Part shown: positions 1 to 24,194 of the stretch, piece after piece
Layout of the letters: the number at the start of each line of letters is the position of its first letter
Position numbering within the stretch: the first letter of the stretch is position 1
Source of the DNA: a virus
Length of the DNA: 24,194 bases
Virus record (IMG/VR): IMGVR_UViG_3300020174_000077
Location: 1-24,194 of that record
Strand: one strand, 5' to 3'
Notes under the pieces: model-generated
What the model was told of the DNA's origin: nothing
The model's input: the letters and a program-made list of their open reading frames with translations, nothing else
Database searches by the model: none
Program-made: the position numbers and the translations under genes

Positions 1-590
1 ATGGAATGGCTCGCTGCTGGGATCGTCCTAAAACTTTTGTTTTTAATACTCATAACTTCGCTGACGATAAGCCTACGGGGCGTTTCGTTTTCTTAGACTT
101 AGATGTTATAATACAAAATGATATGGGCCCTATCATTACACACGACTTAGATAGGCCAACAAAACTCAGAAGTTGGTGGCAAGATCCTCGTCCAATGAAA
201 AGTAGAAACTTTAAACTTGCTCACGGTGCATACACAAATGGATCTTGTCAAGTGTGGTCGGATGACCAATGTGAATGTATATGGGAAGATGTATTAAAAC
301 ATCAAGAACAGATATGGTTCACATTTACTGACGGTACTGATAATTATCACAGCTGGCGGTGGGGAGATTTTAGCAAAGAAAAACTATGGGGACATTTTCC
401 AAGTTGGATGGCATACTCATATAACAGAGGCCGTTCGTGGGATGAGGATGACCTGAGAGTAGACACTTATCGTCCGGGTGCTATACTCTGTGTATTCAAC
501 ATTGACTTGTTACCATTTAAAGATAAGAGTAGAGGGCATACAAAACAAGATGATTTAGCAGACCCTAACTTATTGGCGCATTGGAAATGA
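1..590 (+). CDS. glycosyltransferase-like protein, 5' end outside window
   Basis: The frame is open from the left edge (first full codon at base 3) to a TGA at 588-590. Comparison with the next gene shows this protein lacks the first 60 or so residues of the family, so the first in-frame ATG at base 6 is probably internal and the gene starts upstream of the window. A DxD-type motif (FLDLDVIIQ; the two Asp codons lie at 96-98 and 102-104) is the usual nucleotide-sugar/metal site of GT-A fold glycosyltransferases. A second conserved block, HFPSWMAYSYNRGR, is shared with the downstream neighbour. It probably transfers a sugar from an activated donor; donor and acceptor are unknown. GC content by hand count is about 43%, far above the neighbouring homologue. 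Its stop codon overlaps the ATG of the next gene (ATGA), indicating translational coupling. Confidence 0.72.
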   Translation, partial: GMARCWDRPKTFVFNTHNFADDKPTGRFVFLDLDVIIQNDMGPIITHDLDRPTKLRSWWQDPRPMKSRNFKLAHGAYTNGSCQVWSDDQCECIWEDVLKHQEQIWFTFTDGTDNYHSWRWGDFSKEKLWGHFPSWMAYSYNRGRSWDEDDLRVDTYRPGAILCVFNIDLLPFKDKSRGHTKQDDLADPNLLAHWK

Positions 591-1291
591 TACACATCTA
601 TACAGTTAAATGGGGCAATAAGTATTCTAGCTCTCATGTTAATGCTGTTTACTTAGATTGTTTATCTAAGCTGACAATTGATTTTCAATTTCATTGCATA
701 ACAGAAAATTCTTTTGGTATATCTTCTGATATTAATATTATTGATATTCCTCTATCTAACTATTATCAAAAATGGTGGAATAAACTATATCTGTTTCGTA
801 CTGATGTAGTCACACAGAAAGGAGAAAAACTTTTTCTTGATTTAGATATTAAGATACAAAGAAATCTAGATAGATTTATTGATTATCCATGTGATAATAA
901 ATTATTATTTGTTAAGACTGAATGGCATAATCTTGAAAAAATGAAAAAAGATACTGAGCATATACCACACAAATATACTAATCTAAATTCTAGTATATTA
1001 AGATGGAACGATGGGCTAACTGAATCAGAAGAAATGAAAAGATTCAATAAGATGACTGAAGATTACCCTAGTCAAATGTTTTTCTATTTTAGAGGGCTAG
1101 ACAATTTATTTTACAACAAGTTTAGTCACGATCATATAGGACACTTTCCTAGTGGTTGGGTGTACAGTTATAACTACGGGTATCAATATCCAAATGATAT
1201 AGAACAATTTAAATACAGAGAAACACCATTCATATGTTTATACGATTCAATGGGGAGACCAGAAGATGTTAAGATTAAACTTCCTGACTAG
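587..1291 (+). CDS. glycosyltransferase-like protein (GT-A, DxD motif)
   Basis: A 234-residue protein homologous to the preceding gene. The N-terminus (MIHIYTVKWGNKYSSSHVNA) looks like the first beta strand and helix of a GT-A nucleotide-sugar fold. FLDLDIKIQ carries the DxD motif at residues 85-87, and HFPSGWVYSYNYGY lies near residue 187. The start is placed at ATG 587 because it forms an ATGA overlap with the upstream stop; a TTG two codons earlier at 581 is possible but less likely. GC content is only about 26% by hand count, much lower than its homologue and the baseplate genes, with strong A/T preference at third positions. This suggests a different recent origin. The acceptor could be a virion glycan, host surface polysaccharide or modified base; nothing in the sequence decides. 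The 3' end overlaps the next gene by 26 bases. Confidence 0.8.
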   Translation: MIHIYTVKWGNKYSSSHVNAVYLDCLSKLTIDFQFHCITENSFGISSDINIIDIPLSNYYQKWWNKLYLFRTDVVTQKGEKLFLDLDIKIQRNLDRFIDYPCDNKLLFVKTEWHNLEKMKKDTEHIPHKYTNLNSSILRWNDGLTESEEMKRFNKMTEDYPSQMFFYFRGLDNLFYNKFSHDHIGHFPSGWVYSYNYGYQYPNDIEQFKYRETPFICLYDSMGRPEDVKIKLPD

Positions 1292-1922
1292 TTTCAGGTA
1301 TTGGGGTATGGCGCTTGATAAGATTGAGCATGAAATGCCTCACAAACATGATGACTTTAGAAAGTCCATGAACCCAAACACAATGGATGCTGCTGTTTGG
1401 TTGATGGAAGAACTTGTAAAACAGTTAGACCCAGACAAAGAATACAATATTATTGTATTAAATTCTTGGTTGGGGTTTCCTCTTGTGCCTCTCATCTGTG
1501 AGAATATCAAAGTAAAGCATATGGATTTGATTGATATTGATAACGAAGCACTAGAATTATCTAAGGTTTTTAATAAGTATTATACTGACAACGGTATTGA
1601 CATAAATCATCTTCAGTTAGATGTTCCATTTGCATTCCACGACATTAATGCACTAGACACTGACATTGTTATTTCTTTGGGATGTGAACAAATGTATCCT
1701 CTCAGAGAACTAAAAACAAAAAATCCTGATTGTATGTTTGCCTTACAAACTAGTAATGTAATTCAGGAAATGTATGGTATTAATTGTGTTGATAGTATTG
1801 AAGGTCATTTAGAAAACACAGGCATAAAAAAACCACTCTACACAGGACAAATAGAGCAGTTTTATTATAACTGGGAAGGTAAAGTTTTCTTTGATAGATT
1901 TATGGCTATTGGAAAGAAGTAG
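1266..1922 (+). CDS. putative class I SAM-dependent methyltransferase-like protein
   Basis: A 218-residue protein with a weak Rossmann methyltransferase pattern. A hydrophobic strand and turn at residues 61-78 (NIIVLNSWLGFPLVPLIC) sits where motif I would be. It is followed by a strand ending in acidic residues (MDLIDIDNEALELSK, residues 86-100), typical of the ribose-binding acidic residue. DTDIVISLGCEQMYPL (121-136) could be the motif IV region. The classic GxGxG is missing, so catalytic activity is uncertain. ATG 1266 is preceded by GGAG at 1254-1257 with an 8-base spacer and overlaps the upstream gene by 26 bases; ATG 1308 in the same frame is an alternative. It is the last gene of the plus-strand trio and its end overlaps the convergent oxygenase gene by 17 bases. 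A non-catalytic SAM-fold protein is also possible. Confidence 0.55.
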   Translation: MLRLNFLTSFRYWGMALDKIEHEMPHKHDDFRKSMNPNTMDAAVWLMEELVKQLDPDKEYNIIVLNSWLGFPLVPLICENIKVKHMDLIDIDNEALELSKVFNKYYTDNGIDINHLQLDVPFAFHDINALDTDIVISLGCEQMYPLRELKTKNPDCMFALQTSNVIQEMYGINCVDSIEGHLENTGIKKPLYTGQIEQFYYNWEGKVFFDRFMAIGKK

Positions 1923-2562
1923 CGTCTTCTTCTGATATATCCTCAATCATACTACGCCATATTTCTAAGTGAGGGACAACAAACCCTAAAGTGATACGAG
2001 GCTCATAGGACCCGGCACAGTGATAATAAACTTTGTCGGGTTCTCTGCCTCTGCCATAGTATCCTACTTTACAAGTCCAACCTGGCTTGTCTTCCATAGT
2101 TACTATTTCTTTGGTGAGAGGATCCATGTATCTAAAGAAACCATTGCCTGTAGGTGAATACGACAATAGTATATTATAACCAGAAGCATTCCAATTATTG
2201 TGCCAACCCATATAACCGCCTTCGGGGTAAAATACATTGACTGCTTGATTGCGAGCACCTAGATAAGAGCATAATTTTTTTGACAATTTTAATCTTTTTT
2301 CTTTGTGTTCAGAAGGCACATTGTCACAAGAAGCTATGTCTACAGAGAGTGTTCTTTCAGGATACCCTATATGCTGGCCGTCTTTCTCTACAATTTCTTT
2401 TAGATAATCTTCACCACAGGCTTCTTCTAACTTCATACCCTTGTGGCGTTCTCTGTTGTGTGAAATATCTGTGAGTAATTTCATGTCCGTATCAAAAAAC
2501 CAAGCACTATACTCATTTAACATTTCTAGGACTTCTTCATTGTTTATATCAATCCACTTCAT
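1906..2562 (-). CDS. 2OG-Fe(II) oxygenase-like protein
   Basis: A 218-residue protein whose C-terminal half looks like a 2-oxoglutarate/Fe(II) oxygenase double-stranded beta helix. Features in order: YMGWHNNWNASGYNILLSYS (residues 117-136) with candidate iron ligand His121; KVGYYG near 165-170; YYHCAGSYEPRITLGFVV (179-196) with candidate distal His181 and Arg189, spaced eight residues apart as expected for the 2OG carboxylate contact. The usual HxD is HNN here, so the acidic ligand is Asn123 or the enzyme uses another arrangement. The substrate is unknown; related families hydroxylate proteins, sugars or nucleobases. ATG 2562 has AAGGA with an 8-base spacer and overlaps the preceding glycosyltransferase gene by 14 bases, so it is the last gene of a short operon. 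Its end runs into the convergent methyltransferase-like gene. Confidence 0.7.
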   Translation of the reverse strand: MKWIDINNEEVLEMLNEYSAWFFDTDMKLLTDISHNRERHKGMKLEEACGEDYLKEIVEKDGQHIGYPERTLSVDIASCDNVPSEHKEKRLKLSKKLCSYLGARNQAVNVFYPEGGYMGWHNNWNASGYNILLSYSPTGNGFFRYMDPLTKEIVTMEDKPGWTCKVGYYGRGREPDKVYYHCAGSYEPRITLGFVVPHLEIWRSMIEDISEEDATSFQ

Positions 2563-3262
2563 TCAATTGATCCTTGGGTATCGTATGATGATATAAAACT
2601 ATTTCAGTGCCTTGCAATTCTTCATAGTGATAGCCGTTAACAAAATTCCAACGCGCATCAGGCTCTTCTACGTATCCCCATTTAATATCAAATTCTCCGT
2701 ACGTTAATAATTTCCACATAGTAAATGTGTCCCACTGTACAGCAGTTGGAGGATAATGAGCAATATCATAATCAGGTTCACGTTGTTTCAAATACTCAGT
2801 CCACCATGCACCCATTAGATCCATGATAGCAGGTGTTTTACGATAAACAAAAAACCCACAGTGACAGGTCATTTCTTCAGTATCAGAAAGTTTTGTTAGC
2901 CTAGCATTATATGGTCTGTTTTTAGTAAATACAATATCTTTGTCTTCTGGTAAAATATCAAAAATATTTTTAATATCTTCATGCTCACACATCATGTCTG
3001 CATCAAGATATGCTGTAATATCATAGGGAGTTTTGTTTAGAGCCCAGAGTTTTGCTCTGATATGATTTGGTATTCCTTCAGTTATCACAGTGTCGAACAG
3101 TTTGTAATCCTCAGGGGTTACCCAATGTTCATGTGTAAAAAATGTAATGTTAGCTTCTGGCCAAAAGTCTCGTATTGATTCTGCTAATAGTTTAGCATAA
3201 AGATAAAATGCTTTTTTGTTAGAAGCAACAATAACAAATCCTTTATTGTTCTTCTTCGGCAC
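2549..3262 (-). CDS. glycosyltransferase-like protein (GT-A, DxD motif)
   Basis: About 237 residues. The N-terminus (GFVIVASNKKAFYLYAKLLA) reads as a first strand and helix of a GT-A fold, followed by KLWALNKTPYDITAYLDADM, in which DAD is the DxD donor/metal-binding motif (about residues 87-89). Downstream are CHCGFFVYR and a C-terminal YHHTIP that may add a metal-binding His. The layout resembles GT8-like or general nucleotide-diphospho-sugar transferases. The start is taken as GTG 3262, because AAGGA lies 8 bases upstream of it; a TTG at 3268 is possible but sits only two bases from that ribosome site. It overlaps the preceding coiled-coil gene and is followed by the oxygenase with a 14-base overlap. 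It is not closely similar to the two plus-strand glycosyltransferases. Acceptor unknown. Confidence 0.75.
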   Translation of the reverse strand: MPKKNNKGFVIVASNKKAFYLYAKLLAESIRDFWPEANITFFTHEHWVTPEDYKLFDTVITEGIPNHIRAKLWALNKTPYDITAYLDADMMCEHEDIKNIFDILPEDKDIVFTKNRPYNARLTKLSDTEEMTCHCGFFVYRKTPAIMDLMGAWWTEYLKQREPDYDIAHYPPTAVQWDTFTMWKLLTYGEFDIKWGYVEEPDARWNFVNGYHYEELQGTEIVLYHHTIPKDQLNEVD

Positions 3263-3734
3263 TTTCAAGTTCCTTCATCAACAAAATAGTAGTGTATGCT
3301 TGCACTTCTACAACACTTTTAGCTTTTCTTATTAATTTTTTAAGTTCAGTATTTTTTGAATTTTTGACTTTATCAATTTCAAAAGATTCTAGTTTAACAG
3401 CAAATAGTGCCTCTTGTTGAGCCCTAGCTTTTTGTGATTCTCGTCTTTCTGCCGTCTTTTTAATGTTGGCATTTCTTTTTTCTAAATTCAGTCTAGTGTT
3501 TTCGTCTATCTGTTCTTCGGTATACACCTTTAGTATTTCTTTCATATCAGGATTTGTTCCATCTGTATCCTGAATAGATGCCATTCTTTCTATACCATTA
3601 GAAAGTTTGACGGTTACTATGAGATGTCTATTACCCCTATTAGACCAATAGGGGTTTATGTATTCTTTGGTAGGCTTAGATTCTTCGACTATTTCTGTTA
3701 CCGACGAATCTAAAGGTACGGATAATTCCGACAT
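3243..3734 (-). CDS. conserved phage-type coiled-coil protein, function unknown
   Basis: A 163-residue protein I cannot assign. Residues 1-70 form a small domain with a recognisable block NPYWSNRGNRHLIVTVKLSN and then TDGTNPDMKEIL. Residues 75-163 are highly charged and predicted helical (LEKRNANIKKTAERRESQKA, then ESFEIDKVKNSKNTELKKLI), consistent with a coiled coil. No catalytic motif, signal peptide or membrane segment is seen. It is the first gene after a perfect sigma70-type promoter, with a GGAG ribosome site (3742-3745 on the plus strand) 7 bases before ATG 3734. Its place directly after the fibre genes would fit a fibre-assembly helper, but its co-transcription with enzymes argues equally for a partner of the glycosyltransferase. 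Both ideas are inference. Confidence 0.75.
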   Translation of the reverse strand: MSELSVPLDSSVTEIVEESKPTKEYINPYWSNRGNRHLIVTVKLSNGIERMASIQDTDGTNPDMKEILKVYTEEQIDENTRLNLEKRNANIKKTAERRESQKARAQQEALFAVKLESFEIDKVKNSKNTELKKLIRKAKSVVEVQAYTTILLMKELESAEEEQ

Positions 3735-3760: not shown

Positions 3761-3789
3761 ATTATATTACTATATAGTCAAGATGTCAA
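3761..3789 (-). promoter_or_regulatory. consensus sigma70-type promoter
   Basis: On the minus strand the sequence reads TTGACA (plus-strand 3784-3789), exactly 17 bases, then TATAAT (3761-3766): a perfect match to the bacterial housekeeping consensus at both boxes and at the optimal spacing. Transcription would start near 3754, giving a leader of roughly 20 bases that holds GGAG before ATG 3734. The -35 box overlaps the TGA stop of the upstream fibre-like gene (3786-3788). It would drive the coiled-coil, glycosyltransferase and oxygenase genes using host RNA polymerase. Confidence 0.85.
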
Positions 3790-4874
3790 GCAGTTCTTAA
3801 CCACAGTTTAATTGTAGAAACTGTTTCTGTAGCTGCTTTAATTGTGTCACTTGAATAATTGCCGGCAAAGTCTTGAGAATAAAATCCGGTATAAGTACCA
3901 GAATAATCAGTAACACCTGTATAAAATCCGGTGTAATCTCCTGAGAAAGTTCCACCAACATAACCAGAGTAATATAATACATAATCTCCGGTGTATGTTC
4001 CGCTATAGTCAGCTGGTCCTTCATATGCTCCGGTGTAATCACCTGAGAATGTCCCAGTATAGCTTCCTGAATAAGTAGAAGAAGCTACTTGATGTCTAGT
4101 ATCAGAGAAGCCTGCTGCGTCACCCATTTGTGTCCAAGTACCTGTTTCAGAAGGTGAAGATGCTTGTACTAAGTAACATCCAACACCAGGAGTTGATCCA
4201 TATCCTTCAACAATTCTATTCCTAAAGTTAGGAACTATCTGCTCAATTTCAGCAGCTGTCTGCATTTTTAAACCACTGTCATATTTCAGAGAAGTTAAAT
4301 CGCTGTTTGCTGATGAGGTCGGCGCTGTTTTTTGCCAAAGATATATAGTGTTAGAACCATCTAAATGTGTATCGGTAATTGTATATCGAGAAGTCCAGGT
4401 ACCGCCAGAAGGAGCAGATGCTGCAAGTTTAAACTGACCAACGGTGTAATCGCTTTCGCTTACCATATCTTCTATAACTTTGTCTAATATGTCAGTGTCT
4501 AGTTGAGAATCCGTAAACTCTTTTATTCCACTATCATAACCCACAGGACGATTTGTAATACTTTCTGTAGCAGCTGAAGTTACTTGTTTAAAATAATAGG
4601 TATTAACTGTAGATGTAGCGCCTGTTGCTGGGTGAGTACCAACAGATTCAGTTCTTTGAGTGTCAGCAAAAGTGCCTATAGAAGAACCACTAAGAGCATT
4701 TGCAGTATCCATATTGAGATCACCGGTAAGGGTGCCGTCCCAATCTGTTGCATATTTGTTAGTAATTACATATGATAGATACTGTTCAATATCAGTATCA
4801 GACATCTCTTGCAAACCTTGATAGTTTGCAGAAGTTATTGGAGAACCTGAGGCCTTTACTCTTATTGGTCGCAT
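3786..4874 (-). CDS. tail fibre/appendage-like virion protein with Tyr-Gly repeats
   Basis: A 362-residue protein of modular, repetitive build. The first 270 residues hold three degenerate copies of an 80-90-residue unit that begins with a pattern like YDSGIKEFTDSQLDTDIL and ends in a beta-rich stretch such as NTIYLWQKTAP. Residues 266-341 are a Tyr/Gly/Ser/Thr-rich run of YSGTYTG and GTFSGDYTG units, a low-complexity beta-type tract seen in phage fibres and adhesins. The protein ends in a short segment with IKLWLRTA. The N-terminal VKASGSPITSANYQGLQEMS resembles starts of other marine phage fibre-like proteins. AGGA lies upstream of ATG 4874, and the gap to the previous gene is 10 bases. It is the last structural gene of the minus-strand series; its stop codon lies inside the -35 box of the next promoter. 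Receptor binding or decoration of the baseplate rim is an inference. Confidence 0.65.
   Translation of the reverse strand: MRPIRVKASGSPITSANYQGLQEMSDTDIEQYLSYVITNKYATDWDGTLTGDLNMDTANALSGSSIGTFADTQRTESVGTHPATGATSTVNTYYFKQVTSAATESITNRPVGYDSGIKEFTDSQLDTDILDKVIEDMVSESDYTVGQFKLAASAPSGGTWTSRYTITDTHLDGSNTIYLWQKTAPTSSANSDLTSLKYDSGLKMQTAAEIEQIVPNFRNRIVEGYGSTPGVGCYLVQASSPSETGTWTQMGDAAGFSDTRHQVASSTYSGSYTGTFSGDYTGAYEGPADYSGTYTGDYVLYYSGYVGGTFSGDYTGFYTGVTDYSGTYTGFYSQDFAGNYSSDTIKAATETVSTIKLWLRTA
3852..4079 (-). repeat. Tyr-Gly-rich repeat tract in fibre-like protein
   Basis: Encodes residues 266-341, built of short units YSGxYTG and GTFSGDYTGxYxG; YSGTYTG occurs twice exactly and GTFSGDYTG twice exactly. 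Confidence 0.85.
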
Positions 4875-4884
4875 TTATATATTC

Positions 4885-5367
4885 CTAGTTAAGTCTTGTA
4901 CCTGTTGAGTCATAAATTGGCAACTCTACAAGAGTATCCCAATTACTAACACTTGTTCCTATTAAATCTTTTGTAGCCCCTGTAGGAACTGTGATAGGAT
5001 CATTTGCTGTTCCACTATTTATAGAATCGCCCACTGCTGGGTAAATTTTTATATTATTACCAGAAGCGTTCGCAATTGTATATTTCAAACCCCCTGTAGG
5101 ATCAGGAAGAATAACCCCCTGATTTGTTGTGGCAGTGGTAACTATATTGTATGTTTTGGTAAGAAGTGTGGCATCACCCTGAACCGTTCCGGCTGCTGAA
5201 ACTGAGGTGTCAGCCGAGGCCTGAAAATCCCCAGAAGAAGTAATACTTCCAAAGTCTACATCATCACCGGACTCGTATTTGTCTGTATTAAGATTACTAA
5301 AGTTATCATCCATCTCAGTGTTAGTGAGAGGAGATCCTTTACCTGTTCTAGTTATAATTGTAGCCAC
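4885..5367 (-). CDS. tail fibre-like virion protein
   Basis: A 160-residue protein starting at GTG 5367 (GGGA with an 8-base spacer). The N-terminal block TRTGKGSPLTNTEMDDNFSN is a motif I recognise from many phage tail-fibre and appendage proteins, where it occurs at or near the N-terminus. The rest is beta-rich and low in charge: a GDATLLTKTYNIVTT segment, a GVILPDPTGGLKYTIANASG strand pair and a C-terminal VELPIYDSTGTRLN. In related phages this kind of C-terminal domain (polymer phase, then a small beta sandwich) is found in short appendages. The gene is separated by 3 bases from the upstream coiled-coil gene and by 10 from the downstream fibre-like gene, so they probably form one translation unit. 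Exact role unknown. Confidence 0.7.
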   Translation of the reverse strand: MATIITRTGKGSPLTNTEMDDNFSNLNTDKYESGDDVDFGSITSSGDFQASADTSVSAAGTVQGDATLLTKTYNIVTTATTNQGVILPDPTGGLKYTIANASGNNIKIYPAVGDSINSGTANDPITVPTGATKDLIGTSVSNWDTLVELPIYDSTGTRLN

Positions 5368-5370
5368 TTA

Positions 5371-5601
5371 TTATTTCCCGGATATTTTTTCTAAAATTAA
5401 TTTCATACAGTCTTTCAGTTCTTTTACTTCAGAATTTAATATATTTATGTCTAACTGCTGCTGCTCAATTTTTTTCTGATTTGCTAGCCTTTCTGCTCTT
5501 CTTTTTTTATATTCTATTGCACCTTTTGTATCGGTGCTTAAAATAGCTTTGCTATAGCCATCCTTAATTAAGTTATTTTCACCTTTTACTTTTTTTAACA
5601 T
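5371..5601 (-). CDS. small coiled-coil protein, function unknown
   Basis: A 76-residue, lysine-rich protein. Residues 1-30 contain a short DGYSKAILSTDTKGAIEYKK motif, and residues 30-73 form a strong amphipathic helix (RAERLANQKKIEQQQLDINI, then LNSEVKELKDCMKLILEKIS) with heptad-like hydrophobic spacing, hence a probable coiled coil. Its ATG is fused to the stop codon of the giant upstream gene (TAATG), without a clear separate ribosome site, so translation is probably coupled to that gene. Placement between the giant appendage protein and a fibre-like protein suggests a connector or chaperone; this is inference. Confidence 0.7.
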   Translation of the reverse strand: MLKKVKGENNLIKDGYSKAILSTDTKGAIEYKKRRAERLANQKKIEQQQLDINILNSEVKELKDCMKLILEKISGK

Positions 5602-8600
5602 TATGCTGCCAGTAGAGCGTAGGCTCTCAAGTTTGTGGACTTAGGAATTTGTGTTGTACTTGTACTCAGGTGTACAATCTTAACAGACCAAATCTTAAAC
5701 CCTACAAAAGTTGTAGTTGATACTGTAGGTGTCAAAGTAGCTCCGGCACCTGTACCGCTAATGCTATTGGTTGCTGTAAGAGTAGGAGTTCCTGTATAAC
5801 GGCCGCCTTCTGTGACAGTAACACCAGTAATTTCACCCGATCCTCCGACTGAAGAAACTGTAAGTAATGCTCCTCGTCCTACACCTGTTACTTGTATAAC
5901 ATCTCCTATTGCATATCCAGTACCTGCAGCACCTATACTAACTCCTGTGATAGTGTTCACATCATACTCTAGTATACCGCTACTATTCAAGCCAAAGTTA
6001 CCGCTACTCTTTAAAGGAACCTTATACTGATATTCTTGCCACTGCTGTCCCGCCACGTTAGACGATTGAGTTTCAATTTCTAATTCATGCCAACAAATAT
6101 CTTCTAAGAAGTTAGCACTATCATCATCCTTATGTTGTACCTTAACATAAACTTTTACGTCTGCTTGTGATGGTATCTTATTGTCTAACCAAATCTTAAA
6201 GTCCTCAGATTCTAATCCATCTGTTAGTATAACTTTCTTGCTTATATATCTAGTAGAAGCAGACCCGCCAGTAGCAACTTCTTCATCTGAAGCATCATTG
6301 TTTATTACATTCTTAATCATCAACATAGAAACACTTTCAGCGTTTACCATAGGACTCAAGTTGTTTACACCAGTTCTCATTTCAAACTGGATTGCTACAG
6401 TCTCTCCACGAGGAATGCCGCTAGAAATTTGATTAGAATAACTGTAAAGTACCTGTTCCTCTTGCAGTTCTACTGTTTCACCTATATATGTATCAACGTA
6501 GGTAGTATTTTTTGATGAAGTATTACTTGAAGGCTGTAGAGCTACCTTGGCTCGTAATCCTCCCTGCGAACCATAGTTTGTAGATCTTGCTTTTAATACA
6601 TAAGCATCTATTATACGATTATGTATGGTTCCTATTGTGGCATCGGTAGTACCGTCTGAGACCTTATTGTTGTGAGTATCATCAAAGTGTCCTTGAATTA
6701 CTTCAATTTCATGTGTTTCATATTGAGTGTCGTAAGTATAAACCCTACCACGATTCAATCTTACTGTTGCTGTAGCTATATCTGTTCCAGTATTAGGATC
6801 TGAAATAGTTATAGTTGGGGCTACTTTATATCCTGTGCCATAATCGGTGACAGTGAAGCCTGTTACTTCCCCACCACTATTAGTATTAGCAGTAAGGGCC
6901 AAACCATCTCCACCAGTTCCGTCTGAGTTTACGGTCACTCCAATAGAAGTTGAAGAGGCGGTATAATTTGATCCAGCATTTGTTATTTCAAAAGTAAATC
7001 CATGTAGGAAAGTGCCGGCTGTATATTCAGTGCTTTCAGAAAATTCAATCCAATCCATGTTTTTATTCTTCAAAGTTGCCTGGAAGGTAGTGTCTGTTCT
7101 AAATACACAACGGTTAATTCTAAATGTCATATCTTCTGCCTGGTGGGCCGTCCATGTTCTGTTATTTGCAGAAGTAAACAACACACCAGAATGAGCCTGT
7201 TTACTAATTGTCTTAGTATTTCCTATTTCAGGTTTGCCGAGTTCAGCTATCCAAACCTGATAGTCAGGGTCGTTCATATCAGGGATAGGAACAATACAAT
7301 ACTCTCTGTTATTTTCTAGATACACTGGAGCTTTAAATACAAACTTAGTTCCGTCTACGTTATTACCAGACGGATTTGTTACCACACAATCTTTTCTAAG
7401 TTTGTGACAAGTTCCTAATACTTCAGCGCCCGGATATCCATTTACTACATCTCGTATTTGTAAAGTGATACCGTTATTGTTTGCTTCTGTAGAAATTGAC
7501 TTAAAGAATATATCTACTGAGTCTACAAACATACCTCCTGGCATATTTTCAACCATAAAAGTTTGTGCCATTGGGTCGTAATACATACACAAACCGTAAA
7601 CCGATGATTGTCTAAGAAGACCTGTTTCAGCAAGTGCTGCTTGTATTGCTTCTTCTACATCAGACAAATCATAATCATATTCAACATTTGTGTGTATAAC
7701 ATTTTGTACTGGTGCTGTTTGTGAACCTGTAGTAAAGTTAGTATTAGGATTTGCTACCTGAGTTTGTTTATTAGTATTACGATCTATATTGTATTTTTCT
7801 GACGCATCTGTAAGAGTGCGAGTAACAGTTGCCGCATTACTACCACCGGCTGCTGTCTGTATAGTCTTGGTAGTTGTGTCATTGTGTGAGGTGTCTGTTA
7901 CAGTGTCAAGATCAACACCGGTATTTTTATATATGTTAGAATATGATAATCCGTCAACCGACGTTATACCAGAATATGTAATTGTAGGCTCGGTCAAAGG
8001 CACCCAATGGACTGAGCTAGGGTCGAAAACTTTTTCACCAATGACAACCTTGGGATCTTTATCAATAGTGGGGCCTGCTATAGTTCTCTTTGTTGGGGGT
8101 AAAATATTATAACCCGAATACTGAGTTGCCATGCCCTCATATACCGAAGTAAATTGAGCAGTAGCATATGATTCTATATCACCCCACTTGTCCGTATTAC
8201 CTGTGGCTATTAGTTGAACCTGTTGAGTTCCTATTTCTACCTCTGAGTCTCCTATTTGGAAACTATCTTTAATACAACCTAAACCATCACTGGTGAATGA
8301 ACCTTTGCTAATACCTGCAATATTTAAATCATACAAAGTGTTAGGGCACAATCCGTTTGCTTCAAAATCAATATTGATTTTTTTCGCATATGCTTTTACG
8401 CCGGGTATGAGATTTTCATTGTCTATATAACCATTTTGTCGAATGGGCCCAGGAATTGCTCCGGAATATATCATATCCGTTTTCATATATCCAGTTTCAA
8501 TTACATTAGATGTTACCTGAGAATAAGTTGCCCATTGTTCCTGCTCCCAATAACCTTCAGAGTAATAGTCAACACCATAGTCACCAATTTCAGACTGAAA

Positions 8601-11600
8601 ATGGTCAAGAATCTGTCTTTGGCCGCCTGGAAGCTTTGCGGTACCTGTTATTGTTGTGCCTGGTGTAGTGTTTTTATCAACAGTATGCCAGCCATGGTAA
8701 GTTTTTTCCCAAGCACCTGTATAGTTAAACTGAGAATATTCTCCTTCTACATCTTCTTGTACTTGTTCAACAGGATTGGTGTCATACCAATTGTCATAAT
8801 CTGGATTAAGAGTTAGAACACCCGGACCCTTTAAACAGCTAGATGAAGTAATATTTGGTTCACACTTTCCTGAACTAGGATTCCAAGAGTGTCCTGGTCC
8901 ACAAGCAATCGGGTCTGCTGACGATGCGCCTCTAATTGACACAGTGCTTGAAGGACTTCCTGTTGCATTACCATAACTATCTGTCGCACCCAATGTAAGA
9001 GTAACATCAACAGGAGAAGTGTCTCCAGTTTCTTTTGCTGTAAGAGAAACAAGAAACGAACCAGATGATGAAAAAGATGCAGCAACTGAAGATAGACCAA
9101 GAGCTAAAACCTGTGTTGATGTTACTCCCGTAATAGTCCATGATACAAGCGTGCCCTCAACAAGATTTTGCGCTTGAACATAGAACTCAATTGTATCACC
9201 TTGATCAACAGCATTGCCGGTTTTTCTGATGATAGTGTAGACGGGATCCGGTACATCTAGAGGACTATTATCAACAACATTAGATGTTGCATTATTTGTT
9301 GATGTGGAGTCGGGTATATTATTAACAGTTGAATTTGCTTCAGATGTTTTTGTAGTTGATACGGTGTCTGCCGCACTTGACACGGTTTCCCCCAAATCTT
9401 CTGAATTGACTGGTAATCCGCTTGCTGTATATGTTGAATCATCCTCAACATCATACAATAATTCTATTACAATGGGGCTTGCTTTACTAGCCTGTAGTTG
9501 TTCTGTGTATACTGTAGATACATAAGGAACGTGAAACACTGGGCCTGTTTGTCCTGACTGTGTTGTGGTTCCTGAGTCAATACCCCTAAAGTCTACACTA
9601 GAAGTATTAAACCATGACCTAAGTTGGTTTTTGTTTATGTCAATAGATGCTTTATAATCAGGATGACCTGCAGCTGCTACTGAATGACCTCTGAATGGAT
9701 CTACTAATAATCCATTTTTAAACCTATCTAAACCAGACCCATCTAGAATTAATTGATCTTTAGCTTGTTTTTCTAATAAAGAAAGAGAAGTATAATATTC
9801 AACATTGGTTATTCTTTTTTCCAACCTACCTATATCCCTCATTGTAAAATGAGGATTTTCTAAGTTAGTCACCTTGAGTGACAAATCTGGACGATCAATT
9901 GCCGAAGCCGCCTTTGATGCTAAAGAAGGATAAGGAGGAGCAATCAGAGTAGCTAATGTCATTTCACCTGGATCAGGAGTCTGTATTGAAACTCTCTCAT
10001 TTATAGCAGAGGCCTTCATTACAATATCTCCGTTTGCGTTTATAGTACAACGGTATCCTTGTGGCAAATATGATTGTATATCTGTTGTGAATGTCTCAGT
10101 TGGGATCGGAAAAGTTAAGTTTGAATGACTAACTACTTCTGAGTTGCTAGGATTCTCGCTAGTTACCCCTGCCACAGATGTAGATATATAATTTCCTGTT
10201 GCTGTTCTAGTAGCATAAGGTCTGAAATCTAGAGCATCTCTTAAATCAGTTATACCATATTTTTCTGACTGATAAAGAGGTATTTCCTGAGGATATACCT
10301 CACCTGCAGCTGCTGTGCTATTTTCTGTAGCAGGAAGAGGATAAGAATCTACCGTTGAAAAAGTATATCCTGATGTTGATGTATTTGAAAACCAATTGAA
10401 TTTTACTGTAAGATATTTGTAAGTAGAAAGATTTAATGTACTAGAACTTTTTTTAGTAATAGAAGCAAGACCATAGTAGTTATCTTTCTGCCCAAGGTTT
10501 AATCTAAAATCCTTAGTAACATCTTTTTCTCCAGTAGTATAATCATTTGCGGTGTATGCTAAAACTTGAACAAGTTTATATACATCAGGTACACCTAGTG
10601 AGTATGTACCAGAAGTTCCTACTGGGTGGCTATCTAAATTAAGTTTTACAAAATTATTTTTTTCTGCTGTTTTATTGATTGCTCTAATCTGACCAGAAGC
10701 ACCTGTGGTTCTTACAACAGCATACGCTTTAAAAGAAGGTGTTCCTGATGTTACACTAGTACCAAGAGTATATGTGATTGACTTGTCACTGGATGCTGAA
10801 GGTGACATTGCTTGAGCATCTATGACTTGACCAGTATAATAATTAGTAGAATCTATAACAAAATCTGATGTTGCTATCAGTATTAAATTTTGATCAGTAG
10901 TAGTAGTTACTGCGTTATACCAGGGAAATGTTTCATCTCCCGATAGAGTCAACGTGATTGAATTTGTACCTGATCGATTAATTTCTTTTAGGTATGTAAA
11001 GGTAATGTCTGTATCAGAACTACCCTCTACCTTTAATGTTTTAATAGCCTTTCTAGGTAAAGGCCAAAACATTTTGTTAGTGTCTGGATTTTGTAATGTT
11101 GCAGTAGCACCTACAATGTCTGCAAAAGCATCGGTGGTTCCATTGTCGTAGTGTATACTTTGAACATCTGAAAAAGCAGCTGTGCCTGCAGTCATTTTTA
11201 TATCATAAAGATACAATTTGTATTTACACGCAGCTGCACCGATTGTGCCGGAATCATAAATCATCTGCCGTACTTTGGCTTCACCTATTTTAGTACCTGC
11301 AGGTGAAACTGTAGTAGAAGAAGCACCACCATAAACAGTAGAGGCTGCATTAGTATTAGTATCATATAAATCTACAATGCTATCACCGGTATCTTCTAAA
11401 CCGATATTCCAACTACCTACCATTTCATCAACAACAACATAGTTTCCAAATGCTGTAGTTAGTGTTTTTCCTTCAGCTGCAACAGTTGTTGTAGGCTTTG
11501 AGAAAATTATTCTTTTAGTATTTTCCAGTATTCTAGGATATCCAGCGACATTACATTTACCAGGAGAAATCTCAGCAACTAGGTTACCATTAGAACCAGA

Positions 11601-12647
11601 AGTTGTTAGACCACCGTTGCCTTCTCCGTTGTCGAGATGTTCCCTTACTCTGAGATACAGTCCTTCTACAACATAGTTTCCATTGGTTTCAAACGCTCTG
11701 CTAGCTAGTTGATCACCAAGTTTGTTTAGAGGGTCGTTTCTAGTTCTATGATAAAGAACACTACCATATTCATACTGTGCATACCTAAAAAAGTTTTCAG
11801 GAACAGTAGTTGAATTTAGGGGAAACGATTTTAAAGTTGCCGTTAGCTTATATCTATCAGCACCCGGAGAGTTTGCATTATATGTTCCCGATGCAGGATC
11901 TAACAAAGTATCATCATCATCAGACTGTATAATAGATTCTGTTACATGAAAACCAATTTGTCGTATTACGCTGGTACTAAATTTATCTACATAACACCCT
12001 ATTTTACCAGTTCTAATAAAATGTCCTTTCGCATAAATTAGACCGGGAGACAGTGTAATCCTGTGTGCTACACCGAAATATCTATTTCCCAAAGAGTTAC
12101 TAGTCTGTGTGCCTACAACAAATGTTCTTCCTTTCCAATATCCAGAAGAAGTTACAGTTAAGGTTTCACCTGCTTTAAAATGCCTGTTTAATTCTGTATT
12201 GCTGCCTTCTGTCCAACCCACGTCTGTTTGATTAGTAACTCCCCCACCGTCTATATAACTCAAATATAAAGTCTTAGCGTCTGGGTGAGAAGTTTCTAAA
12301 CCTGTTCTAACATCTACTATCTTAGCTTTTAACCCAGAAGTTCCACCGGTTACTACTTCACCAATAAAGTTAGTAAGCAGAGAGTTTTTAACTTCTGTAG
12401 CTGAGGCATCTGCATCATCCACTTTGATGTATGGCACAACATCAATGGATTCTTCACACCCAGACATAATAGCACCTTCTTTAAGTGTAAAGGAGCTAAG
12501 ATTGGTTATTTGATCTTGTAATATAGTTTGTAGCTGCGTCAGTTCTCTAGCTTGAACAGCAACACCCGGCTTAAACAATATCCTACTGTAATTGTTAGCC
12601 GTATCAAAATCATCATAATATGGGTTCGTATTTAAATTAAGTGCCAT
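5601..12647 (-). CDS. giant DUF4815-type virion appendage protein
   Basis: A 2348-residue protein. The N-terminal part (from NPYYDDFDTANNYSRILFKP, residues 7-26, through FKPGVAVQARELTQLQ) is typical of the DUF4815 phage structural family, and that domain probably covers about the first 1000 residues, ending with a helical section rich in LEKRITNVEYYTSLSLLEKQ. Then come a Ser/Thr/Asn linker (1088-1135), an Ig-like beta domain (about 1136-1240), a small three-Cys motif (Cys1249, Cys1262, Cys1271), and a domain beginning DPMAQTFMVENMPGGMFVDS (about 1690-1850) that is common in large marine phage appendage proteins. Two GxGY beta modules lie at 1885-1968 and 2231-2308. No transmembrane or catalytic motif is seen. 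It sits 13 bases after gp8 and probably forms a baseplate-attached appendage; equivalence to T4 gp10 or a long fibre cannot be decided by eye. Confidence 0.8.
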   Translation of the reverse strand: MALNLNTNPYYDDFDTANNYSRILFKPGVAVQARELTQLQTILQDQITNLSSFTLKEGAIMSGCEESIDVVPYIKVDDADASATEVKNSLLTNFIGEVVTGGTSGLKAKIVDVRTGLETSHPDAKTLYLSYIDGGGVTNQTDVGWTEGSNTELNRHFKAGETLTVTSSGYWKGRTFVVGTQTSNSLGNRYFGVAHRITLSPGLIYAKGHFIRTGKIGCYVDKFSTSVIRQIGFHVTESIIQSDDDDTLLDPASGTYNANSPGADRYKLTATLKSFPLNSTTVPENFFRYAQYEYGSVLYHRTRNDPLNKLGDQLASRAFETNGNYVVEGLYLRVREHLDNGEGNGGLTTSGSNGNLVAEISPGKCNVAGYPRILENTKRIIFSKPTTTVAAEGKTLTTAFGNYVVVDEMVGSWNIGLEDTGDSIVDLYDTNTNAASTVYGGASSTTVSPAGTKIGEAKVRQMIYDSGTIGAAACKYKLYLYDIKMTAGTAAFSDVQSIHYDNGTTDAFADIVGATATLQNPDTNKMFWPLPRKAIKTLKVEGSSDTDITFTYLKEINRSGTNSITLTLSGDETFPWYNAVTTTTDQNLILIATSDFVIDSTNYYTGQVIDAQAMSPSASSDKSITYTLGTSVTSGTPSFKAYAVVRTTGASGQIRAINKTAEKNNFVKLNLDSHPVGTSGTYSLGVPDVYKLVQVLAYTANDYTTGEKDVTKDFRLNLGQKDNYYGLASITKKSSSTLNLSTYKYLTVKFNWFSNTSTSGYTFSTVDSYPLPATENSTAAAGEVYPQEIPLYQSEKYGITDLRDALDFRPYATRTATGNYISTSVAGVTSENPSNSEVVSHSNLTFPIPTETFTTDIQSYLPQGYRCTINANGDIVMKASAINERVSIQTPDPGEMTLATLIAPPYPSLASKAASAIDRPDLSLKVTNLENPHFTMRDIGRLEKRITNVEYYTSLSLLEKQAKDQLILDGSGLDRFKNGLLVDPFRGHSVAAAGHPDYKASIDINKNQLRSWFNTSSVDFRGIDSGTTTQSGQTGPVFHVPYVSTVYTEQLQASKASPIVIELLYDVEDDSTYTASGLPVNSEDLGETVSSAADTVSTTKTSEANSTVNNIPDSTSTNNATSNVVDNSPLDVPDPVYTIIRKTGNAVDQGDTIEFYVQAQNLVEGTLVSWTITGVTSTQVLALGLSSVAASFSSSGSFLVSLTAKETGDTSPVDVTLTLGATDSYGNATGSPSSTVSIRGASSADPIACGPGHSWNPSSGKCEPNITSSSCLKGPGVLTLNPDYDNWYDTNPVEQVQEDVEGEYSQFNYTGAWEKTYHGWHTVDKNTTPGTTITGTAKLPGGQRQILDHFQSEIGDYGVDYYSEGYWEQEQWATYSQVTSNVIETGYMKTDMIYSGAIPGPIRQNGYIDNENLIPGVKAYAKKINIDFEANGLCPNTLYDLNIAGISKGSFTSDGLGCIKDSFQIGDSEVEIGTQQVQLIATGNTDKWGDIESYATAQFTSVYEGMATQYSGYNILPPTKRTIAGPTIDKDPKVVIGEKVFDPSSVHWVPLTEPTITYSGITSVDGLSYSNIYKNTGVDLDTVTDTSHNDTTTKTIQTAAGGSNAATVTRTLTDASEKYNIDRNTNKQTQVANPNTNFTTGSQTAPVQNVIHTNVEYDYDLSDVEEAIQAALAETGLLRQSSVYGLCMYYDPMAQTFMVENMPGGMFVDSVDIFFKSISTEANNNGITLQIRDVVNGYPGAEVLGTCHKLRKDCVVTNPSGNNVDGTKFVFKAPVYLENNREYCIVPIPDMNDPDYQVWIAELGKPEIGNTKTISKQAHSGVLFTSANNRTWTAHQAEDMTFRINRCVFRTDTTFQATLKNKNMDWIEFSESTEYTAGTFLHGFTFEITNAGSNYTASSTSIGVTVNSDGTGGDGLALTANTNSGGEVTGFTVTDYGTGYKVAPTITISDPNTGTDIATATVRLNRGRVYTYDTQYETHEIEVIQGHFDDTHNNKVSDGTTDATIGTIHNRIIDAYVLKARSTNYGSQGGLRAKVALQPSSNTSSKNTTYVDTYIGETVELQEEQVLYSYSNQISSGIPRGETVAIQFEMRTGVNNLSPMVNAESVSMLMIKNVINNDASDEEVATGGSASTRYISKKVILTDGLESEDFKIWLDNKIPSQADVKVYVKVQHKDDDSANFLEDICWHELEIETQSSNVAGQQWQEYQYKVPLKSSGNFGLNSSGILEYDVNTITGVSIGAAGTGYAIGDVIQVTGVGRGALLTVSSVGGSGEITGVTVTEGGRYTGTPTLTATNSISGTGAGATLTPTVSTTTFVGFKIWSVKIVHLSTSTTQIPKSTNLRAYALLAA
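5724..5957 (-). repeat. GxGY beta modules, giant appendage protein (second pair)
   Basis: Encodes residues 2231-2308: GVSIGAAGTGYAIGDVIQVT and GVTVTEGGRYTGTPTLTATN with a GTGAGATLTPTV tail, just before the C-terminal 40 residues. Confidence 0.75.
6744..6995 (-). repeat. GxGY beta modules, giant appendage protein (first pair)
   Basis: Encodes residues 1885-1968: FEITNAGSNYTASSTSIGVT and GFTVTDYGTGYKVAPTITIS, followed by a TGTDIATATVRL strand. Same module as in gp7-like and gp8. Confidence 0.75.
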
Positions 12648-23878: not shown

Positions 23879-24194
23879 TATCTACCTGCTAGTGATTTAT
23901 AGGCCTTTACGAAATCCTTTAGGTATTCACTTCTTAATACAAGTTTTACCCTTTTCTTTTCATTTAGTTCAAACTCATATTGATAATTAGATATTCCTTC
24001 TATACTGCTGTCATTAGGATCGTAATCAACAATGAGTTTTTTACCTGATGATTGCCTATAGTGGTGAATCAAACCTGTTGAGTTTGCTCCATATTTGTTA
24101 ATACATAGCTGCTCCAATTCTCTATCAGGAATAGGCCATTCATCAAAAGGATCAATAATTTCATTTACTAGATACAAAACCCAATGGTATCTAG
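23878..24194 (-). CDS. 53: baseplate wedge protein gp53 (5' end outside window)
   Basis: The reading frame is open from the right edge of the window down to a TAA at 23878-23880, so the visible 104 residues are the C-terminal half of a longer protein (T4 gp53: 196). The motif YHWVLYLVNEIIDPFDEWP at the edge matches LYWVLLMCNDNYDPYYGWIT of T4 gp53. The C-terminal EYLKDFVKAYKSL corresponds to the terminal helix FMNDLIRIMEKSY of T4. A TTG at 24177 is in frame but internal, since the conserved YHWV block lies upstream of it. Gp53 clamps gp6 and gp25 in the inner baseplate. Its stop codon overlaps the start codon of the hub gene. Confidence 0.82.
   Translation of the reverse strand, partial: RYHWVLYLVNEIIDPFDEWPIPDRELEQLCINKYGANSTGLIHHYRQSSGKKLIVDYDPNDSSIEGISNYQYEFELNEKKRVKLVLRSEYLKDFVKAYKSLAGR

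Follow-up and report, generated by a model that had tools for sequence, protein, structure and literature searches.

The DNA analysed here (the window) is an entire IMG/VR virus record of 24,194 b, which gave no match to known phages in a DNA-level comparison. The closest terminase among cultured phages is only ~49% identical, hence the record belongs to an uncultured T4-like lineage. Baseplate and fibre genes fill the minus strand from position 24,192 down to 3,786, and a cassette of six genes, A to F, comes next (Table 1). The large protein J (5601-12647) is a homologue of pelagiphage VrlC. As proposed in the initial annotation, the six genes form two facing operons. All six open reading frames are present, F-E-D overlap on the minus strand and A-B-C on the plus strand, and C and D meet tail to tail with a 17-nt overlap. 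The tail fibre gene G, directly upstream of F, belongs to the finding and is counted with it.

Table 1 Features of the six-gene cassette and the adjoining fibre gene, in window coordinates
Feature	Description	Position	Strand	Basis or location
G	tail fibre protein (362 aa) ending in a run of Tyr/Phe-x-Gly-x tetrads; candidate substrate	3786..4874	-	sequence, repeat statistics
F	163-aa charged protein, probably coiled-coil; proposed fibre chaperone or adaptor	3243..3734	-	
E	239-aa GT-A glycosyltransferase (GT8/GT2-like), predicted; DxD at residues 89-91	2549..3268	-	
D	218-aa protein with predicted 2OG-oxygenase fold, H121-x-N123...H181...R189	1906..2562	-	model, fold matches, motif
C	218-aa protein with predicted class I SAM methyltransferase fold, degenerate glycine motif	1266..1922	+	
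B	234-aa glycosyltransferase (PHROG 1962), DLD motif	587..1291	+	
A	3' part of a glycosyltransferase paralogous to B, member of a tandem array	3..590	+	
Sigma-70 site	12/12 consensus TTGACA-17-TATAAT, likely F-E-D promoter	3761..3789	-	between G and F

Gene A is a partial copy because the start of the contig cuts its 5' part; the complete protein at locus L002 has 248 aa. In long relatives two more paralogous glycosyltransferases (GT3 and GT4) lie beyond A, followed by fibre, neck (gp13, gp14), terminase and sheath genes. At one locus (L161, 11181-13388) the ORF that contains GT3 has 735 aa, including a long extra region. Median dN/dS is 0.05-0.08 for all six genes (0.05-0.07 for D, E and C), indicating that each is under purifying selection.

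The perfect sigma-70 consensus upstream of F is conserved in part of the clade. Sites with at least 10 of 12 matches precede F in 40 of 177 relatives, compared with 6 of 177 mononucleotide shuffles and 1 of 176 regions upstream of E, and their position is mostly consistent. This pattern suggests that F-E-D has a predicted early-type promoter of its own, and the three proteins may be made before the late fibre. The T4 late promoter TATAAATA was found no more often than expected by chance.

Predicted folds and conserved motifs

The structure predicted for D is a double-stranded beta-helix (pLDDT 92.9), in line with its earlier description as 2OG-Fe(II) oxygenase-like. Against the PDB the model gave 116 matches at E ≤ 0.001, with 2OG-Fe(II) oxygenases as the best matches and 2OG oxygenases throughout the top 50; these include prolyl hydroxylases, PHD2, AlkB homologues and a chlorella-virus collagen prolyl hydroxylase. 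As the Foldseek TM-scores are low (0.3-0.4), D is assigned to the superfamily and not to a family. Sequence searches of Pfam, NCBIfam, PHROGs and the PDB with D gave no credible match, chance hits in the PDB and Pfam (T-cell receptor, CENP-T, NusB) being set aside as noise. Among viral proteins a single close structural match was found, to an unnamed phage protein. A search of 84,980 bacterial and archaeal genomes detected D on two contigs only, both in bacterial MAGs (L382 and L383, named Bifidobacterium breve and Muricauda sp.); the contigs are probably misbinned phage DNA.

The putative metal site of D, H-x-N...H...R, is invariant in 52 of 52 clusters, and H-x-N...H also occurs in both extra copies of D in phage C48C1. 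Here Asn replaces the Asp/Glu of the usual H-x-D/E...H triad in every cluster, and R189, a candidate 2OG-binding Arg after the distal His, is likewise invariant. We found no described H-x-N oxygenase in the searched literature. A carboxylate ligand is, however, not universal among 2OG oxygenases, as AspH and the halogenases demonstrate, and AspH is a 2OG-dependent protein hydroxylase with two His and no carboxylate (PMC10947486). Human AspH thus resembles the activity proposed for D in hydroxylating protein at a carboxylate-free, two-His metal site (PMC10947486), but it has no detectable sequence relation to D, in which the third position is always Asn. As a member of the 2OG-oxygenase superfamily by predicted fold, D would add a metal-site variant to these enzymes. 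The canonical metal-binding carboxylate is absent, so the activity of D is uncertain and hydroxylation is putative.

All three proteins previously called glycosyltransferase-like kept that assignment. B matches PHROG 1962 at 1.4e-6, and A is its paralogue, with 27% identity and the DLD motif invariant in both. E is a predicted GT-A-type transferase by weak but repeated profile matches and an invariant DxD motif. The window copy scores 17.1 bits against the GT2 profile, below the Pfam cut-off of 23.3, and among 34 relatives 25 match GT2 and 10 match GT8 (best 7e-6), with Nucleotid_trans matches too; D89 and D91 are invariant in 34 sequences. The methyltransferase-like label of C agrees with its model (pLDDT 90.6), which has 683 PDB matches at E ≤ 0.001, headed by BioC, with JHAMT also among the top and TM-scores up to 0.60. 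By predicted fold C is a class I SAM methyltransferase whose motif I is atypical, a conserved LNSWLGxP standing in place of a GxGxG-type sequence. The charged protein F could be placed in no confident family by family searches; a weak homologue is present in Mosig, a phage without a tetrad fibre.

The tetrad fibre and its linkage to F, E and D

The C-terminus of G is a long array of Tyr/Phe-x-Gly-x tetrads. We compiled 7,057 such units from 133 non-redundant fibres, using a search which restricted position 1 to Tyr (71%) or Phe (29%). Position 2 is most often Thr (33%), Ser (19%), Ala (17%) or Val (12%), position 3 Gly (67%) or Arg (12%), and position 4 Asn (21%), Thr (17%), Ala (13%) or Asp (10%). 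The repeat is therefore (Y/F)-x-(G/R)-x and not the Gly-X-Y of collagen. Ser/Thr and Asn/Asp are common in the tetrads, hence possible acceptors are frequent and none is obligatory. N-glycosylation sequons of the form N-Y/F-T/S occur 1,110 times in the fibres; as Asn is the commonest fourth residue, this is expected from composition alone and proves nothing. Fibre length ranges from ~300 to 3,700 aa across loci, with the enzymes kept throughout, and the fibre of phage C48C1 (L146, 3666-13709) has 3,347 aa and about 350 tetrads. Neither a tetrad fibre nor C48C1 is described in the searched literature, and as far as that literature shows the repeat is an undescribed fibre architecture.

To examine linkage from the fibre side, 2.9 million viral contigs were scanned for DNA encoding YTGxYTGxYTG, ignoring the enzymes. 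The scan returned at least 60 distinct terminal repeat genes, and 31 of those listed had at least 3 kb downstream. Among these matches F and E were each found downstream of the fibre ORF in 31 of 31 cases and D in 30 of 31. Among the matches listed, 11 loci of the scan lacked a real repeat gene, and these gave no hit to any of the six profiles. One further repeat ORF (L171), with 1.6 kb downstream, has none of the genes there. The reverse count used D genes found with three different D query sequences and by other searches. For 122 distinct D genes, 4 kb or more of upstream sequence was available, and there we detected a tetrad fibre in 119, F in 120, E in 119 and all three in 118. The exceptions are the two extra C48C1 copies, which lie away from any tetrad fibre (L285, 18234-18917 and 40112-40801; one is beside a tail-tube gene), L380, which has no E, and L113, where F, E and D are retained next to a fibre gene (4493-5446) that belongs to this family but has lost nearly all of its tetrad array. 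C48C1 is also the sole record among 50,697 phage records matched by D, E or the fibre N-terminal part of the window, and all of them are adjacent there. No tetrad runs, D or E were found in the pelagiphage Mosig or in the parts covered of the pelagiphage HTVC008M and four cyanophages.

The other half of the cassette is distributed differently. In all 51 loci where 5 kb or more could be assessed, C faces D, although up to 2.5 kb may intervene between the two genes; B is the neighbour of C in 93 of 93, and A is no more than 5 kb from C in 32 of 32. C stands beside D for 43 of 44 D genes of the window clade, against 2 of the 55 divergent ones. C-B-A is thus a clade-specific partner of F-E-D, locked to D within one large clade. 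The co-occurrence check suggested in the initial annotation gave values far above chance, and its refuting outcome, a lack of co-occurrence, did not arise for the whole cassette within the clade or for F-E-D far beyond it. All loci come from related T4-like phages, so these counts cannot be taken as independent events and partly reflect shared synteny; the replacement of the other flank of D in divergent loci argues against mere shared synteny.

The virion fibre had originally been one candidate target for the entire gene set. For F-E-D there is now a strong case for it, since these genes and a single fibre type go together in both directions and the sampled phages that have no tetrad fibre lack them. 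For C-B-A the fibre is still one candidate target.

Putative fibre maturation and alternative explanations

The reading we prefer, and consider reasonably probable, is that the F-E-D genes form a module devoted to maturing the tail fibre encoded directly upstream. The computation established which genes are present, their folds and conserved residues, and the link in both directions between module and tetrad fibre; the chemistry, step order, acceptor residue, role of F and target of C-B-A are what we infer. F would probably hold or present the fibre, D would oxidise side chains of the tetrad array, and E would add a sugar at the hydroxyl so formed or at Ser/Thr/Asn of the tetrads. Within the window clade C-B-A-GT3-GT4, with four paralogous glycosyltransferases and one methyltransferase, would probably extend that glycan and cap it with methyl groups. 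Hydroxylation, glycosylation and methylation as a single pathway are plausible but unproven. More speculative still is a phage counterpart of collagen maturation, in which the H-x-N oxygenase oxidises the tetrads, E glycosylates the hydroxyls, C-B-A-GT3-GT4 extends and methyl-caps the product in one clade, and the heavily modified shaft governs adsorption or durability; taken as a whole we regard this as possible but doubtful.

Mimivirus L230 is a lysyl hydroxylase/glycosyltransferase acting on collagen. The glucosyltransferase of mimivirus collagen modification is R699 (PMC9546862). Both systems would pair a viral oxygenase with a glycosyltransferase on a repetitive protein of the virus itself, but the mimivirus substrate is Gly-X-Y collagen and its enzymes are recognisable homologues of collagen enzymes, whereas in the window the proposed substrate consists of Tyr-x-Gly-x tetrads and D matches no known hydroxylase in sequence. 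For virion glycosylation in mycobacteriophages we know of no oxygenase partner. There, as summarised in PMC12619734 (citing Freeman 2023), phage glycosyltransferases decorate virion proteins. The targets in those phages are C-termini of the capsid and tail tube. A transferase dedicated to an adhesin is also known from the autotransporter system of TibC with TibA/AIDA-I, where a heptosyltransferase hyperglycosylates the adhesin (PMC4358343); this system differs in being bacterial, in its type of transferase and in having no oxygenase.

Four alternatives were weighed against fibre maturation. It is rather unlikely that D is a catalytically dead DSBH protein serving as a fibre-binding or structural factor, with E the only enzyme. 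The change of Asp/Glu to Asn in all 52 clusters would fit such a loss, but both His and the Arg are invariant as well, and AspH is active with two His and no carboxylate (PMC10947486). We also judge it unlikely that the enzymes alter host surface glycans (LPS) against superinfection, their location in a host-recognition island being incidental. Published work on the pelagimyophage island that lies between VrlC and gp14 reads its glycosyltransferases as modifiers of host LPS (PMC7029224); J is homologous to VrlC, and B-type transferases are also present elsewhere in other phages. It leaves unexplained, however, why F and E follow one fibre type in all 31 cases among the matches listed, and why this fibre precedes D in 119 of 122. 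For C-B-A-GT3-GT4, host LPS modification is the main rival and quite possible.

Hitch-hiking, where fibre, F, E and D are co-inherited as a recombination cassette while E and D act on another target, would be in keeping with the placement of fibre genes in a hypervariable island (PMC7029224) and with the ability of fibre cassettes to move as blocks. We give it a low probability, as other neighbours were replaced over the same divergence (C being kept in 2 of 55 loci) while fibre-F-E-D stayed together, and the enzymes were kept despite the wide range of fibre lengths. Other phages are known to glycosylate phage DNA with transferases of their own, and D has AlkB-type nucleic-acid enzymes among its fold matches, which would suit hypermodification of DNA bases by the oxygenase, glycosyltransferases and methyltransferase. 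The genes sit among fibre and baseplate genes and not in nucleotide metabolism, however, and D tracks the fibre, making this explanation very improbable.

Marine T4-like phages are rich in glycosyltransferases and oxygenases, which are usually classed as host-glycan or metabolic genes. Two-way genomic linkage allows a specific oxygenase-transferase pair to be assigned to a specific and strange virion protein, which opens the role of these phage enzymes to direct testing in E. coli with three genes and one substrate.

The position of the cassette is that of the hypervariable host recognition cluster of pelagimyophages, which lies after VrlC and before gp13/gp14 and carries fibre genes and glycosyltransferases (PMC7029224). 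It differs in that Mosig and HTVC008M have no tetrad fibre, D or E in the parts examined. Cyanophages sharing the J-I framework lack the island, with other structural genes and neck genes within a few genes of J-I. In HTVC008M an annotated tryptophan halogenase gene lies between terminase genes (L287, 13763-15157). Beside the fibres of Mosig (L288, 6701-19000), genes annotated as Asp_Arg_Hydrox-type oxygenases, an acetyltransferase, methylases and MoaA-like proteins occur; they may be another set of genes for modifying fibres or glycans at this genomic position.
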